DNA of 64,000 nt. Source: Planctomycetota bacterium (GTDB taxonomy: Bacteria > Planctomycetota > Planctomycetia > Gemmatales > Gemmataceae). Positions within the stretch are counted from its first letter, which is position 1. Every line of letters begins with the position of its first letter. The notes below the pieces were generated by a model. It was given only the letters and a program-made list of their open reading frames with translations, searched no databases and was not told where the DNA came from. Position numbers and translations under genes: made by a program. This document shows, piece by piece, positions 4,697-60,258 of this stretch. Where the stretch lies: positions 28,624 through 92,623 of the forward strand of contig JAKBCS010000003.1 in assembly GCA_021807595.1 (NCBI GenBank). The letters are read 5' to 3'.

Positions 4697-7129
4697 AATA
4701 TAAATCCGCACATAGGTTTCTTGTTGCACATAGCCCGATAACGGCGGGCGCTGAGTTTGCGTTTCGGGCAGTTCGTCGAGCCAGAGTCGCGTTGGGCTGA
4801 CGCCGTCTTGGGAGATCGTCTCGGCGCGGTCGTGGCGCGGCGGGGTGCGAGCGACCAGAATCGCCTCGGCCCGGTAGCGCCGCTGCGGTCCTTCGCCGTG
4901 GGCTTGGATGCGCCAGCCGGCATCGAGAAAGCGTAATCCAAAGTTTGATCGCTGTCCTCCTCCGGCGACGCCATGAAACAGAGCGGCACGCATGGTTTCG
5001 TGAGAAGCCAGCGACGGAGACGCGCCGCCCGACGCCGAGGGTATCTTGGCCGCGCGCGGCTGCCATATTTTCGAGGCGAACCAGTCGGCCAGCAAGTTCG
5101 GCTTCACGTCGCGCTCAAACAACGGCCCTACCTCGCGCGTCTCGCCGGGCGCGAGATCGCCGACGGCGTACCACTGTCCCTGAAAGAACAGAGCCGTTCC
5201 ATGCAGTTCGCAGGGCAGCTGGTTTACCAGCGCGCCGCTCAGCGCCTTGCCGTCGCGGCTGAGGCGCAACTCCGCTTGGAAGGGCGCAGGGCGATCCTTC
5301 GATTTCCGATCCTTGAATGGGGCGCGCCACGAGGATGCGAACGCGCGCGTCGCCCATATGGGAATGGGCAACCGACGAAGTCCCCCCGCATCGGCGGTGT
5401 AATCGTAGGGCTGGCGAAAGAGGCTCTGCGACACGCTGCCAAGACTCGCTTCGGGACCGTCTGACGCGGCCAACTCCACCGGCGGTATCGGCGCGTCGGG
5501 ATCGCCCACTTCCCAAGGGCCGCCCCACTCCGGCGCGACCGGCTCCAGCCCGATCGTGTAGTTCTCGATGCGCGGGCTAAACAGCGTGAACCAGGTCCGC
5601 CCGTATATTTGCCCCGACGCGCGCGCTTCGTTTTCTGCTAAATCGATCTTGTTTATAGGCAATTCGATTTCTACTAGGTCGATCTTATTTATGCGCAATT
5701 CGTCGCCCTTAACCGAATAGGCCGTCGCATAAGCGGCCACGCTGACAATCACCACCAGTGCGGGAAAGGTGATCCACGTCCATTCCAACCGCTTGAACAC
5801 TTTTTTGAGCAACAGGTAGTCGAGCGGGCCTACAAGAACGATGTAAAACAGGACGAACAGCGCGACCCAGCCGAACGAGATGACCGGCACTTCGGGAAAT
5901 GTCTCCAAGTTGCGCTTCAGATCGCCGGCCAATCCGCCTCCCGGCTCGTCGATGGGATTGGGATTGGGATTGGCGAGCGGCGCGCGGGGAGCGATCTCCT
6001 CGTGCAGTTTCTTCCAAAACGCGCTCTGGCCGTCCCAGTCGGAGAATGGCGGTGCATCCAGATCGAAGGGAACGAGTACCACGCGCCCCAGGCCGCAACT
6101 CGATTGCAGCACGACGGGCCTGATCTCACGATCGTTGTCGGTTGGATCTTCGTGGACTAGACCGAGCATTTTCGGGCCGGATTGCACGGCAACGAGGTCG
6201 ATCGCGCCAATCGGCTTCCGGCGGGGATCGGCTCCGATCCACTGTTGTAAACTCGGCAGCGCGGGGCGAGTGACTTTGCTTTCCAGCACGCCGTCCACCA
6301 AAGGTACTCGTTCCAGAAACTTGGCCGCGCTCGCTTGGTTCCGCCCCACCGAAAAGACCAATCGGCCTCCGCGGCGCACCCAATCGAACAGGGCATCTCG
6401 CCGCGCCTGATCCATGTCGAGCAGACCTTGGGCGAACGCATCGCCGCTCGTGGTCAGTACGAGAACGTCCACCGCTTCGTAGCCGAACCAGCGATCCGGT
6501 AGGTCGGCGATTTTCTGAATCGATGCGAAGCCGGGAATTGGCTCGTTGTCGTCTTCCTCCGGGTTCTCCTTCTTGGCCGGTTCGGGTTTGACGGCGGCCT
6601 TCAGGCGAGGAAGCGGCGAACCCACGGTCAAGTACAACAACTCGCGCGGTTCGAGTATTTCTTGGTTCGCGGGATTGCGCGTCAGTTGGGAGATGGTCTG
6701 GGCGACGGAGCCGTCCGTCGTTTGTAAGGTCAGAGTGAACGTCGCTCCCGCGCTGCCGGGCCGGACGTAGGCGAAGATCACCCGTTCGCCGTTGGCCGCC
6801 ATCGCCGGCACGGGCACGCGATAGCGATACGGCGTCGCTTCGCCGTCGAGGGATTCGACGACGACGAGATAGCGCTCGCCCAGTATATCGTCGGCCCCAG
6901 CCTTGAGTGGAATTTTTACCGGCGTCCACACGCCGTCGCGCGACCGTGCGACATTCGGACCATCGGGCAGTCCGATGCGCACTCCCTCTCGGTCGATGTG
7001 CGGCGGAGCGGAGGATAGTGCGATTGAGGGCAATAATCCCATCAGCAGAAGATAACCGAACGGACGAGCGGAGGGCGCAAACTCCCCGATACGTTTTCCT
7101 TTGGTGGGTTGAAACTCACCCCTCGCCAT
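4676..7129 (-). CDS. Large membrane protein of unknown function, with C-proximal TM helices, upstream of the ABC ATPase
   Basis: Long ORF; secretion-like N-terminus (YLLLMGLLPSIALSS), glutamine-amidotransferase-like fold segment (RRGGRLVFSVGRNQ), TM segments WVALFVLFYIVLVGPLDYLLL and FPALVVIVSVAAYATAYSV. Start inferred at MARGEFQ to avoid overlap with the MazG-like gene. Confidence 0.7.
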   Translation of the reverse strand: MARGEFQPTKGKRIGEFAPSARPFGYLLLMGLLPSIALSSAPPHIDREGVRIGLPDGPNVARSRDGVWTPVKIPLKAGADDILGERYLVVVESLDGEATPYRYRVPVPAMAANGERVIFAYVRPGSAGATFTLTLQTTDGSVAQTISQLTRNPANQEILEPRELLYLTVGSPLPRLKAAVKPEPAKKENPEEDDNEPIPGFASIQKIADLPDRWFGYEAVDVLVLTTSGDAFAQGLLDMDQARRDALFDWVRRGGRLVFSVGRNQASAAKFLERVPLVDGVLESKVTRPALPSLQQWIGADPRRKPIGAIDLVAVQSGPKMLGLVHEDPTDNDREIRPVVLQSSCGLGRVVLVPFDLDAPPFSDWDGQSAFWKKLHEEIAPRAPLANPNPNPIDEPGGGLAGDLKRNLETFPEVPVISFGWVALFVLFYIVLVGPLDYLLLKKVFKRLEWTWITFPALVVIVSVAAYATAYSVKGDELRINKIDLVEIELPINKIDLAENEARASGQIYGRTWFTLFSPRIENYTIGLEPVAPEWGGPWEVGDPDAPIPPVELAASDGPEASLGSVSQSLFRQPYDYTADAGGLRRLPIPIWATRAFASSWRAPFKDRKSKDRPAPFQAELRLSRDGKALSGALVNQLPCELHGTALFFQGQWYAVGDLAPGETREVGPLFERDVKPNLLADWFASKIWQPRAAKIPSASGGASPSLASHETMRAALFHGVAGGGQRSNFGLRFLDAGWRIQAHGEGPQRRYRAEAILVARTPPRHDRAETISQDGVSPTRLWLDELPETQTQRPPLSGYVQQETYVRIYIPVVSSQ

Positions 7130-56607: not shown

Positions 56608-57219
56608 ATGTCATCTTTCGTCAACCTCGTGGCCGATCTCGCGCCCGGAAGGCCGCTGATCGACAATAGCAACGTCTTTTACTCCATCGTCGGCGGAGCG
56701 ATGCTGTTGTTATTGCTGCTGATTCTGTTCTTGCGGCGCGGTCGTCGGCCGTCGGTGGATGCCGAGGCAGGGCTTGTCGAAAAGCTGGTCGATTATCCGC
56801 CGGCGGGTCCGGGACCGTCGCGCTTATTCCTGCACGGGCAGCCCGTGCGTTTACGATTGGTGGTGATGGCACCGATGGGCAAACGGCCCTTGCCGTCCGA
56901 CATTGCAGTCGAACCGGCGCTCGAGCGCGTCGTGCGCGGCTTGGGAGGCATCGTGCGGCAAGATCGGCCTCGCGTGCGCGCTTGGCCGGCACAACTCAGC
57001 CAACACGGCTTCGCACCCACATTCTTTCGGCTGAGCCAGCGCCCGGAACCGGCCGGCAAGCCTTCGCCCTGGCTCTTCGCCGCCGGACCCGTTCGCGCCG
57101 ACGGCCAGCAATTCCTCCTCGGTCTCGTCCTGTTCGCCGATGTCTCGACTGCCGACAACAACTTGATCTTGGATGCGACTCAGTGGAGCGAATGGTTCCG
57201 CGTCGGTCCCAGGGCCTGA
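56608..57219 (+). CDS. Single-TM protein of unknown function
   Basis: MSSFVNLVADLAPGRPLIDNSNVFYSIVGGAMLLLLLLILFLRRGRRPSVD followed by a cytosolic domain; directly upstream of the RNA ligase-like gene. Confidence 0.65.
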   Translation: MSSFVNLVADLAPGRPLIDNSNVFYSIVGGAMLLLLLLILFLRRGRRPSVDAEAGLVEKLVDYPPAGPGPSRLFLHGQPVRLRLVVMAPMGKRPLPSDIAVEPALERVVRGLGGIVRQDRPRVRAWPAQLSQHGFAPTFFRLSQRPEPAGKPSPWLFAAGPVRADGQQFLLGLVLFADVSTADNNLILDATQWSEWFRVGPRA

Positions 57220-57318: not shown

Positions 57319-58572
57319 ATGGAATTGCGTCTCGATCTCTTGTTGCAGAAGTTGCGCGACCGTCCCGCTGCCGTGCTCGACGCCATCGACCGCGATCCGC
57401 TTTTGCTGAAGCGCGAGAGCGGATCGCTGGTGTTGGCCAATGCCAGTCAGGTCTTGTACACCCCGCAAGAAGAACATCAACTCTACGCCAAGGGCATCGT
57501 CTATCGCCGCCATCCCTACCGTCTGGTGTCGCTGCCGCTAGTCAAGATTTACAATCTCGGCGAGCGCGAGGTGACGGTGGCCGATTTGATCGCGCTGATG
57601 GGCGAGCCAAACGTCTCGTTGCGCTTTCCGCGAAAAATCGACGGCTCGTTGATCCAGGTGTTTCGGCACGAGGGGCGCGTCTGGTTTACGACGCGCGGAG
57701 CCATTGAAGGAGCGACGTGGCGCTCCGACCGTGAAACGGGCGACGAGTTCGATTATCTCGGCGCGGCCCGCCGTCTCGCCGTCGAGCGCTATCCGCGCCT
57801 GCTCGACGACGATGCCTTGCCCGAAGGCCGCACGTTGATTTTCGAGCTGATTCATCCGTTGGCGAAGAAGATAACGGACTACGGCGAGCGAGCGGACTTG
57901 ATCTTGTTGGCTTGCTTCGACGTTCGCCGATGGGCCTACGCCCGCTATGAGGAAGTCGTGGACCTTGCCGCGCGTCTTCAGCTTGTCGCGGTGGATGCCT
58001 ATTCCCCACGCGGGGCGACGCTGAGCGAACAGATCGAGGATCTTCTGCAATCGCTGGCCGGTTCCGATCAGGAAGGCAGCGTCCTCCAATTTGAGAACCG
58101 AGTCGAGGCGATCTATCGGGTCAAGGTAAAGTCGCCGGACTATCTCCGCCTGCTGCGCGCGATGTCCCAATGCACTTACGAGAATCTCGTCGCCCTCGTA
58201 GACAACAATTCCGATCTGAAAAGTTGGCAAGACGTGGAAGCCTACTTTCATTCGCTGGGAAGGGAGACGATGCCCGAAGAGATCTTGCAAATGTATCGTC
58301 CGCATTTCGATCGATTCCTGGCTTATCTCGCCGCTTGCGAGCGGCTGCGCCAATGGGCGCTGGCGACTTCTGCCGACCTGGCGCGCCGTCTTGGGGACGA
58401 GAAAGACACCCGAATCCAGCGCAAGGGGTTTGCTGCCGTGGCGTCGCGCTTCCCTCGCTCCAATCTGCTCTTCGCCGCGTTCGACAACCGCCTCGACGCC
58501 GACCGGATGCGTCGTCTCATCCGCGATCCCGACGAAGCCCGGCAAGCGCTCGCCGATCTCGACTTGGTTTAG
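57319..58572 (+). CDS. T4 Rnl1-like RNA ligase family protein (putative)
   Basis: KIYNLGERE, motif I PRKIDGSLI (Lys106), VWFTTRG, TLIFELIHPLAKKITDYGERADLILLACFD, motif IV QEGSVLQFEN, motif V YRVKVKSPDYL. Confidence 0.85.
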   Translation: MELRLDLLLQKLRDRPAAVLDAIDRDPLLLKRESGSLVLANASQVLYTPQEEHQLYAKGIVYRRHPYRLVSLPLVKIYNLGEREVTVADLIALMGEPNVSLRFPRKIDGSLIQVFRHEGRVWFTTRGAIEGATWRSDRETGDEFDYLGAARRLAVERYPRLLDDDALPEGRTLIFELIHPLAKKITDYGERADLILLACFDVRRWAYARYEEVVDLAARLQLVAVDAYSPRGATLSEQIEDLLQSLAGSDQEGSVLQFENRVEAIYRVKVKSPDYLRLLRAMSQCTYENLVALVDNNSDLKSWQDVEAYFHSLGRETMPEEILQMYRPHFDRFLAYLAACERLRQWALATSADLARRLGDEKDTRIQRKGFAAVASRFPRSNLLFAAFDNRLDADRMRRLIRDPDEARQALADLDLV

Positions 58573-58818
58573 GCGTCCCCTTGGATTCGTTCGCTCGACT
58601 TCGTCCGCCATGTTCCGCCGTTCGACGCGACGGCAATGCGGGAAGTCGAGGGGCAAGGAGAATTGCGACAATCGTTATCATTCGACCGCGATGATCCTCC
58701 CCGTCTCGCCCAAACGGCAATCGCGTTCGCTCTCGCTTGGCAGAACGCGAAAGACGGGTAAAATGAATTGTTGGGATTCGATGAGAGCATCGCGCCGCTT
58801 CCGCGCAACCGCGTCCGA

Positions 58819-60258
58819 ATGGGATCAGCCATGGATTCGATGGATGTCAATGTCTTCAGGCAAATGATTCTCAAACTCGGACTTGCCACCGAAGCCCAAA
58901 TGGCGGAAGTGCGCGACGAGATGGGCGATGGAGTGGACTTGATCCAATTTCGCAGCGCGATGGAACGCAAGAGTTTTCTGACGCCCTGGCAGAGCGGCAA
59001 AGTGCTGAAGGGCGACCTCGATGGCTTTTACCTGGGCGGCTATCGCATTCTCTACAAGATATCGTCGGGGAGCTTTGGCCGGGTATTCCGCGCCGACGAT
59101 CCGCGCAGCGGCCGCGTCGTCGCCGTCAAGGTGCTGCGCCGGCGTTGGAGCGAAGATCAGGCGCGCATCGACCTGTTCATCCGCGAAGGCAAAGTCGGAC
59201 TGACGCTGAAACACCCCAACATCGTCGAGGTGTTGGCCATCAGCCGCGACAATTCCTCCGGCCAATACTATCTCGTCATGGAGTTCGTTGAAGGCGGCAA
59301 CCTCCGCGAGATTTTGCAAATCCGCAAGAAATTAAATGTCGCCGAGTCGCTGCGCATCGTCTCCGACGCCGCCAGCGGACTCGCTTACGCCTACAGCCGA
59401 GGCATGGGGCACCGCGACATCAAACTGACGAACCTGCTCATCTCCAGCACGGGCGAGGCGAAGCTGGTGGACTTCGGTTTGGCTCAATTCTTTTCGACGC
59501 TGGCCAAAAAGGAAGAAGAGAAGGTCGATCGCACCGTCGATTATGCCGGTCTGGAGCGCGCCACTGGTGTGAAATCCGGCGATGTGCGCAGCGATATTTA
59601 TTTCCTGGGTTGCGTTCTGTACGAGTGCATGACGGGGCGCTCGCCGATCACCATGACGCGCGACAAGAACTCGCGCATGCGGAAAGAGCGGTTCGAGGAA
59701 GTCAAACCGATCAACCCCCACGAAATCGACGGGCCGCCCAGCGTCCTCTCGTTGGTGGAAACCATGATGGCGCTCGACCCCAAACAGCGCTACCAAACGC
59801 CGACGCAGCTGGTCGATGCCATCAAGACCGTGCGCCGCGATGTCGAGGGCAAGGCGGGCAAGGGCGATGGACGCGCGCCGTCGCGCTCGGTCTTCGTCGC
59901 CGAACGCGACGAGCATTTGCAAGACGTATTGCGCGACGGCCTTAAGGATCAGGGGTATCGCGTATTCATGGCCAGCGACCCGTTACGGGCATTGGACCGC
60001 TACCGGCAGCAGCCCTACGACGCCTTGATTGTGGACGCGCGGACCACCGGCGAAGACGGCTTTCGCGTCTTCGAGCATATCGTGGAGGAAGCGGCGCGAA
60101 AACGGCTGACTTGCGCCGCCGTTCTGCTCTTGGGGCAAGATCAAGCCAGTTGGGCAGGTCGATTGCACGAAGCGCCGCACGTCGGTGTCTTGGTGCAAAA
60201 CATCACGCTAAAAAGTGTTGCCCGCAAACTCAAGGAACTGATCGAGGCGGCACATTGA
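58819..60258 (+). CDS. Ser/Thr protein kinase with C-terminal response-regulator receiver-like domain
   Basis: ISSGSFGRVFRADD, HRDIKLTNLLIS, DFGLAQFF; C-term SVFVAERDEHLQDVLRDGLKDQGYRVFMASDPLRALDRYRQQPYDALIVDARTTGEDGFRVFEHI. Confidence 0.88.
   Translation: MGSAMDSMDVNVFRQMILKLGLATEAQMAEVRDEMGDGVDLIQFRSAMERKSFLTPWQSGKVLKGDLDGFYLGGYRILYKISSGSFGRVFRADDPRSGRVVAVKVLRRRWSEDQARIDLFIREGKVGLTLKHPNIVEVLAISRDNSSGQYYLVMEFVEGGNLREILQIRKKLNVAESLRIVSDAASGLAYAYSRGMGHRDIKLTNLLISSTGEAKLVDFGLAQFFSTLAKKEEEKVDRTVDYAGLERATGVKSGDVRSDIYFLGCVLYECMTGRSPITMTRDKNSRMRKERFEEVKPINPHEIDGPPSVLSLVETMMALDPKQRYQTPTQLVDAIKTVRRDVEGKAGKGDGRAPSRSVFVAERDEHLQDVLRDGLKDQGYRVFMASDPLRALDRYRQQPYDALIVDARTTGEDGFRVFEHIVEEAARKRLTCAAVLLLGQDQASWAGRLHEAPHVGVLVQNITLKSVARKLKELIEAAH

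Follow-up and report, generated by a model that had tools for sequence, protein, structure and literature searches.

The window, i.e., the whole 64,000-nucleotide stretch of planctomycete DNA analyzed here, encodes an Rnl1-like ATP-dependent RNA ligase of 417 amino acids. Genomes that carry this ligase nearly always encode end-healing enzymes too, and it therefore probably performs the sealing in an RNA-repair kit whose parts are dispersed over the chromosome. Computational comparison assigns it to its family, finds its active site intact, traces a largely vertical inheritance, and reveals its co-occurrence with repair genes. A role downstream of the kinase-phosphatase Pnkp in RNA repair is on balance the favored explanation; catalysis, a tRNA substrate, and the partnership with Pnkp are deduced from co-occurrence and comparison with related systems.

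Family assignment

The ligase gene lies exactly where the first-pass annotation of this DNA had placed it (Table 1), and its proposed identity withstands comparison with HMM profiles. The protein passes the Pfam cut-offs of PF09511 (RNA_lig_T4_1; 1.6e-11, 44.9 bits vs. a cut-off of 28.3) and PF09414 (RNA_ligase; 3.9e-6, 27.5 bits vs. 27), and its residues 54-368 match the T4 Rnl1 family of phages, annotated “RNA ligase and tail fiber protein attachment catalyst” (phrog_562), at 1.5e-30. Mismatches to a 91%-identical ortholog fall mostly at third codon positions (26/14/59 for the three positions), and the ORF is under purifying selection. The upstream ORF encoding a single-TM protein behaves in the same way (12/7/30, no internal indels); because of this third-position bias both are real genes, as had been supposed for the TM ORF.

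Placement in the T4 Rnl1 branch, also proposed earlier, holds in part: T4 Rnl1 accounts for the top three PDB fold matches, but the score against TIGR02308 (T4 RnlA equivalog) is 21.4 bits, far below the cut-off of 242. PDB sequences gave no direct match to the ligase, and a Pfam scan of the protein gave none to PF16542, the Pnkp ligase domain used as the criterion for Pnkp1-Rnl-Hen1. These comparisons support membership in the nucleotidyltransferase RNA-ligase superfamily, closest to the Rnl1 branch. As both the curated cut-off and the C-terminal domain (see below) set the protein apart from T4 RnlA, it is not filed as an equivalog and constitutes a divergent Rnl1-like clade. We infer that it is likely an active RNA ligase.

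Table 1. Features of the ligase gene, its neighbors, and related Pnkp genes (amino acid numbering of the window ligase; positions in the window unless another locus is named)
Feature	Position	Strand	Evidence
Rnl1-like ATP-dependent RNA ligase gene, 417 aa	57319-58572	+	PF09511/PF09414, phrog_562, T4 Rnl1 fold match, 21 full-length orthologs aligned
K76-I-Y-N, counterpart of T4 Rnl1 K75-F-F-N, upstream of motif I	57544-57555	+	hhalign; K76, I77, N79 invariant in 21 orthologs
Motif I K106-I-D-G-S, predicted AMP-accepting lysine	57634-57648	+	aligned with T4 K99-E-D-G-S; K106, D108, G109 invariant
TTRG, R126 where T4 has K119	57688-57699	+	hhalign; T125, R126, G127 invariant
E176 of FELIHP, opposite T4 E159	57844-57846	+	hhalign and ortholog alignment
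Motif IV E252-G253	58072-58077	+	hhalign and ortholog alignment
Motif V K269-V-K271-S	58123-58134	+	hhalign and ortholog alignment
All-helical C-terminal domain, residues 271-417, eight helices, mean pLDDT 92.6	58129-58569	+	AlphaFold model
Single-TM protein, no conserved unit with ligase	56608-57219	+	codon-position bias; adjoins ligase only in one 91%-identical relative
Ser/Thr kinase-receiver fusion, no conserved unit with ligase	58819-60258 (at widest 58768-60258)	+	Pfam; adjoins ligase only in one close relative
Healing-only Pnkp genes	L090 (G028) 5491-6792; L091 (G487) 5438-6793; also L092-L098

Active site

The essential residues of T4 Rnl1, which we take to be R54, K75, F77, K99, G102, K119, E159, E227, G228, K240, and K242, all have counterparts in the window ligase. 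An hhalign alignment of the 21 orthologs with T4 Rnl1 pairs them (window/T4) as K58/R54, K76/K75, Y78/F77, K106/K99, G109/G102, R126/K119, E176/E159, E252/E227, G253/G228, K269/K240, and K271/K242; eight of the 11 positions are identical and three are conservative replacements. With the exception of Y78, every paired residue from K76 through K271 is invariant in the family, and the strictly conserved set in the 21 aligned orthologs includes K106, D108, G109, E176, E252, G253, K269, and K271. The motif positions read from the sequence earlier were accurate (codon 106 at 57634-57636 for the KIDG lysine, residues 252-253 for EG, and 269-272 for KVKS). The first-pass annotation had made its proposal depend on retention of the KxDG lysine, which is kept in 21 of 21 orthologs.

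Predicted structure and C-terminal domain

An AlphaFold model was built from nine orthologs (mean pLDDT 83.8). Behind T4 Rnl1, its PDB matches are led by fungal Trl1 and archaeal ligases, and Rnl2, the Naegleria ligase, and DNA ligases are matched more weakly; the T4 Rnl1 match exceeds that of Rnl2 by several orders of magnitude. TM-scores to the PDB matches are modest (0.41-0.45; about 0.43 for T4 Rnl1 over the full length, with a high rmsd), so the relative domain placement in the model is not to be trusted.

In T4 Rnl1, the C-terminal helical domain is Rnl1-specific and involved in tRNA specificity. The model of the isolated C-terminal domain of the window ligase found no similar solved structure in the PDB, T4 Rnl1 being absent among the matches, and a BFVD search returned only a chance-level match to a split RnlA (E = 4). 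A profile of the domain weakly matches Streptomyces phage ligases in the corresponding region (E of 3e-7 and 1.5e-6 within a set of about eleven sequences). As modeled, the protein thus resembles Rnl1 in its catalytic half, and no recognizable likeness to T4 extends to the C-terminal half.

Gene neighborhood

The surroundings of the ligase differ between genomes. The TM gene, the kinase, and a large upstream gene stand beside it in the 91%-identical relative only, a Planctomycetota metagenome assembly that was the sole match in a contig scan with one query sequence. Because this adjacency is shared with a single close relative, the TM protein and the kinase are not considered partners of the ligase: the link to the TM protein, which headed the first-pass annotation, is not borne out, nor is conservation of the neighborhood formed with 56608-57219 and 58819-60258. 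The reading of the latter as a kinase-receiver fusion is confirmed by Pfam. A local operon of the three genes was accordingly rejected. The kinase matches 36 PADLOC models, among them the PD-T4-6 model PDLC04055 at 7.2e-174; it probably belongs to a planctomycete kinase family that falls inside the PD-T4-6 model and is not evidence of defense. A defense island was discarded as well, as the ligase has no PADLOC match and the kinase hits many PD-T4-6 models in the manner of a generic kinase.

At five loci in two genera, a TerB-like gene of 125 amino acids lies head-to-head with the ligase (L022 9403-9780, L023 about 1858-2232, L065, L068, and L071). A link between the two genes is possible but would be minor.

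Distribution and descent

Of 97 genomes of the window's planctomycete family, 22, i.e., about one fifth, have a full-length ortholog. A PF09511 search of the family genomes, which applies a lossy initial filter, missed the clade even in the window's own genome, and its negative outcome carries no weight. Across a 394-genome sample of the phylum, the own genome alone gave a full-length match, and two others gave distant partial ones. In the phylogenetic tree, a single clade with full support, set on a long stem, unites the orthologs, and members of the same genus cluster together, which fits largely vertical inheritance with repeated loss. G477 (5.9 Mb, nearly complete) keeps a ligase remnant in a gene context seen in G485: the start MNLRLDHL runs directly into the C-terminal part, and a frameshift follows. 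This genome is devoid of Pnkp, Hen1, and RlaP, which speaks for a tie between the ligase and these genes. Recent origin from a phage or plasmid was dismissed, as matches among the phage and plasmid sequences searched reach only 22-31% identity.

Co-occurrence with RNA-repair genes

No kinase, phosphatase, or nuclease partner had been noticed in the window, and a stand-alone ligase had been suggested. The absence is an artifact of the window, since the repair genes lie on other contigs of the same genome: C23 carries a Hen1-Pnkp operon (Pnkp TIGR04075, 1356 bits; Hen1 TIGR04074, 691 bits), C18 carries RtcB, and C59 an adjacent pair of RlaP genes.

Co-occurrence was assessed in the 97 family genomes (22 with and 75 without the ligase). 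Presence was called per gene from the listed matches by an E-value or coverage threshold, and Pnkp was counted where both kinase and phosphatase were intact. Two controls were applied singly, within genome-size quintiles and within genus, and catalase served as a neutral patchy control gene. Hen1 is found in 20 of 22 ligase carriers and 15 of 75 non-carriers (Fisher 1.8e-9; size quintiles P = 0.0001; genus P = 0.0009). The corresponding counts are 20/22 and 19/75 for Pnkp (Fisher 3.4e-8; size P = 0.00025; genus P = 0.035) and 21/22 and 29/75 for RlaP (Fisher 1.1e-6; size P = 0.004; genus P = 0.0008). RtcB, encoded by 21 of 22 carriers and 57 of 75 non-carriers, shows no association (P = 0.69 within genus, 0.38 within size), and its candidacy as a partner was dropped on the grounds of both controls over the 97 genomes. 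Catalase (12/22 vs. 14/75) is associated in the raw comparison (P = 0.002) and slightly within genus (0.03), not after size stratification (0.26); part of the co-occurrence signal is therefore due to genome size.

A genomic partner combining 5'-kinase and 3'-phosphatase, as heal-and-seal repair demands, is thus intact in 20 of the 22 carriers and degenerate in the remaining two (a 106-residue match in G002 and broken frames in G474). At the loci examined, the ligase shares no operon with any repair gene and is never adjacent to Pnkp. Ten genomes encode Pnkp, Hen1, and RlaP in the absence of the ligase.

Two further observations concern the repair genes themselves. Hen1, two adjacent RlaP genes, and Pnkp stand in a row in G002:C214, G001:C344, and G013:C33, an apparent four-gene repair cluster; in G002 its Pnkp is only a remnant, and the own genome has its RlaP pair on a separate contig. 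RtcB frames of about 1020-1034 amino acids (G038:C384, G040:C55, G007:C83, and G479:C41) are interrupted near profile position 50 by about 500 additional residues, which might be an intein.

Healing-only Pnkp

The two ligase carriers that lack Hen1, G028 and G487, encode as their sole Pnkp a protein of 433 and 451 amino acids, respectively, which ends after the phosphatase domain and has no ligase domain. Both retain the P-loop and phosphatase motifs, and in neither does a contig end account for the missing part. In an ordinary Pnkp, sealing by the ligase domain requires Hen1, and the T4 system combines Pnkp with Rnl1 (PMC4411300). The window-type ligase is therefore the obvious sealing candidate in these two genomes. 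Tentatively, this Rnl1-type ligase with its own C-terminal domain might constitute a second, Hen1-independent sealing arm for Pnkp, which would have taken over sealing in G028 and G487 upon loss of the Pnkp ligase domain and Hen1, rebuilding the T4 arrangement of Pnkp and Rnl1 from bacterial parts. That Pnkp can be naturally shortened to an enzyme that only heals is a useful lead in itself. Pnkp proteins of about 430-520 amino acids with kinase and phosphatase motifs and no ligase domain occur at loci L090-L098, either as the sole Pnkp or besides another copy. Speaking against a sealing role of the window-type ligase here, at least four genomes (G012, G009, G481, and G033) have a healing-only Pnkp without it.

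Proposed role and alternative explanations

As a member of the Rnl1/Trl1 branch, the ligase would be adenylated at K106 with ATP and pass the AMP to a 5'-phosphate RNA end, which would then be joined to a 3'-OH. Transesterifying ribotoxins do not directly leave 5'-PO4/3'-OH ends, and a healing enzyme must therefore supply them. The Pnkp kinase-phosphatase encoded elsewhere in the genome might heal RNAs after breakage (most probably tRNAs), RlaP might replace any nucleotides that have been lost, and the window ligase might seal the ends in trans. The protein could thereby act like the sealing half of the T4 Pnkp/Rnl1 pair and, not relying on Hen1, provide another means of sealing than the Pnkp ligase domain.

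The ligase might instead act on a house-keeping or regulatory RNA (e.g., in RNA circularization or processing), its co-occurrence with repair genes reflecting no more than the tendency of large genomes with many genes to retain every gene of this sort. The lack of operon linkage, the ten genomes holding the repair set without the ligase, and the raw association of catalase fit such a role, which is nevertheless rather unlikely: the associations of Hen1, Pnkp, and RlaP survive size stratification where that of catalase does not, most family genomes dispense with the gene, unlike a house-keeping gene, and the Pnkp of both Hen1-less carriers is without a ligase domain. A repair ligase for ready-made 5'-PO4/3'-OH ends, such as those left by metal-dependent nucleases, would need no healing partner. 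The gene does stand alone and has been inherited vertically while its neighbors changed; an association with a healing enzyme, however, is not what this explanation predicts, and it is judged improbable.

That the protein is a DNA ligase or a nick-sealing RNA ligase of the Rnl2/Rnl5 type is very unlikely, given the lead of T4 Rnl1 over Rnl2 in the fold search and the best family matches to PF09511 and phrog_562; the nucleotidyltransferase motifs common to all these enzymes and the weaker fold matches to T4 Rnl2, the Naegleria ligase, and DNA ligases speak for it. Least credible is a local defense unit of ligase, TM protein, and kinase. The strong PDLC04055 match of the kinase speaks for it, but is one of many expected from a generic Ser/Thr kinase, the ligase matches no PADLOC model, and the lack of conservation of both neighbors beyond the 91%-identical relative largely refutes it.

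Sealing of Pnkp-healed ends thus remains the preferred explanation, and it bears on how bacterial RNA repair is understood. The characterized systems are described mainly as RtcB, Pnkp-Hen1, or Pnkp1-Rnl-Hen1. An Rnl1-type ligase that is retained on the chromosome and whose distribution follows that of Pnkp, Hen1, and RlaP, although its gene is unlinked to theirs, suggests a common use of repair components in trans and a possible coexistence of methylating and non-methylating sealing. G028 and G487, with a healing-only Pnkp and the ligase, and the own genome, with everything, are concrete test genomes.

Comparison with known systems

A literature search that did not include the main RNA-repair survey (Burroughs and Aravind 2016) found nothing on planctomycete RNA ligases of this type. 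The closest structural relative is T4 Rnl1 (RnlA/gp63), with which the window ligase shares the nucleotidyltransferase domain, the aligned catalytic residues, and the best PDB fold match. Phage T4 Rnl1 mends cut tRNAs. The window ligase differs from it in residues ~1-50, which are unaligned, in a C-terminal domain not recognizably T4's, and in being chromosomal with no adjacent PNK. The fungal Trl1 adenylyltransferase domain, next in the fold search, is eukaryotic and fused with a kinase and a cyclic phosphodiesterase. RNA ligases of Streptomyces phages (Belfort, Faust, and LukeCage) are Rnl1-like, with 23-25% identity and a weakly similar C-terminal domain, but are shorter, phage-borne, and on long branches away from the window ligase; a polynucleotide kinase is encoded a few genes from them.

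The best sequence matches outside planctomycetes are stand-alone Rnl1-like ligases, JMA_43430 from a Jeotgalibacillus plasmid and a Rhizobium ligase beside rtcR. They share ~26-31% identity, confined to the catalytic domain, and sit on long, uncertain branches. RtcR is an RNA-repair activator responsive to damaged tRNA. On the Rhizobium plasmid (L135 2902-5928), the superfamily RNA ligase neighbors rtcR, and RtcB is not listed in the stretch shown. In another planctomycete, a T4-PNK-like HAD phosphatase-kinase gene overlaps an Rnl1-like ligase gene (L014 428-1354 and 1351-2472), and a pair of this type is present in two near-identical copies in G035. Further planctomycetes encode fusions of ~745 amino acids in which an Rnl1-type ligase domain follows kinase and metallophosphatase domains (L010 253-2496 and L011 1156-3384), by their domain composition putative one-protein heal-and-seal enzymes with a ligase domain unlike that of Pnkp.

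Bacterial Pnkp-Hen1 and Pnkp1-Rnl-Hen1 (PMC4411300) likewise perform heal-and-seal repair with an ATP-dependent ligase, and Pnkp-Hen1 is encoded in the own genome as well; those systems use PNKP_ligase-type enzymes that act together with Hen1, whereas the window ligase is Rnl1-type and unlinked. In a survey of jumbo phages, the occurrence of end-healing enzymes and of RlaP was reported to follow that of ATP-dependent RNA ligases (PMC7824862). The contexts of the distant relatives point the same way, in agreement with a heal-and-seal role.
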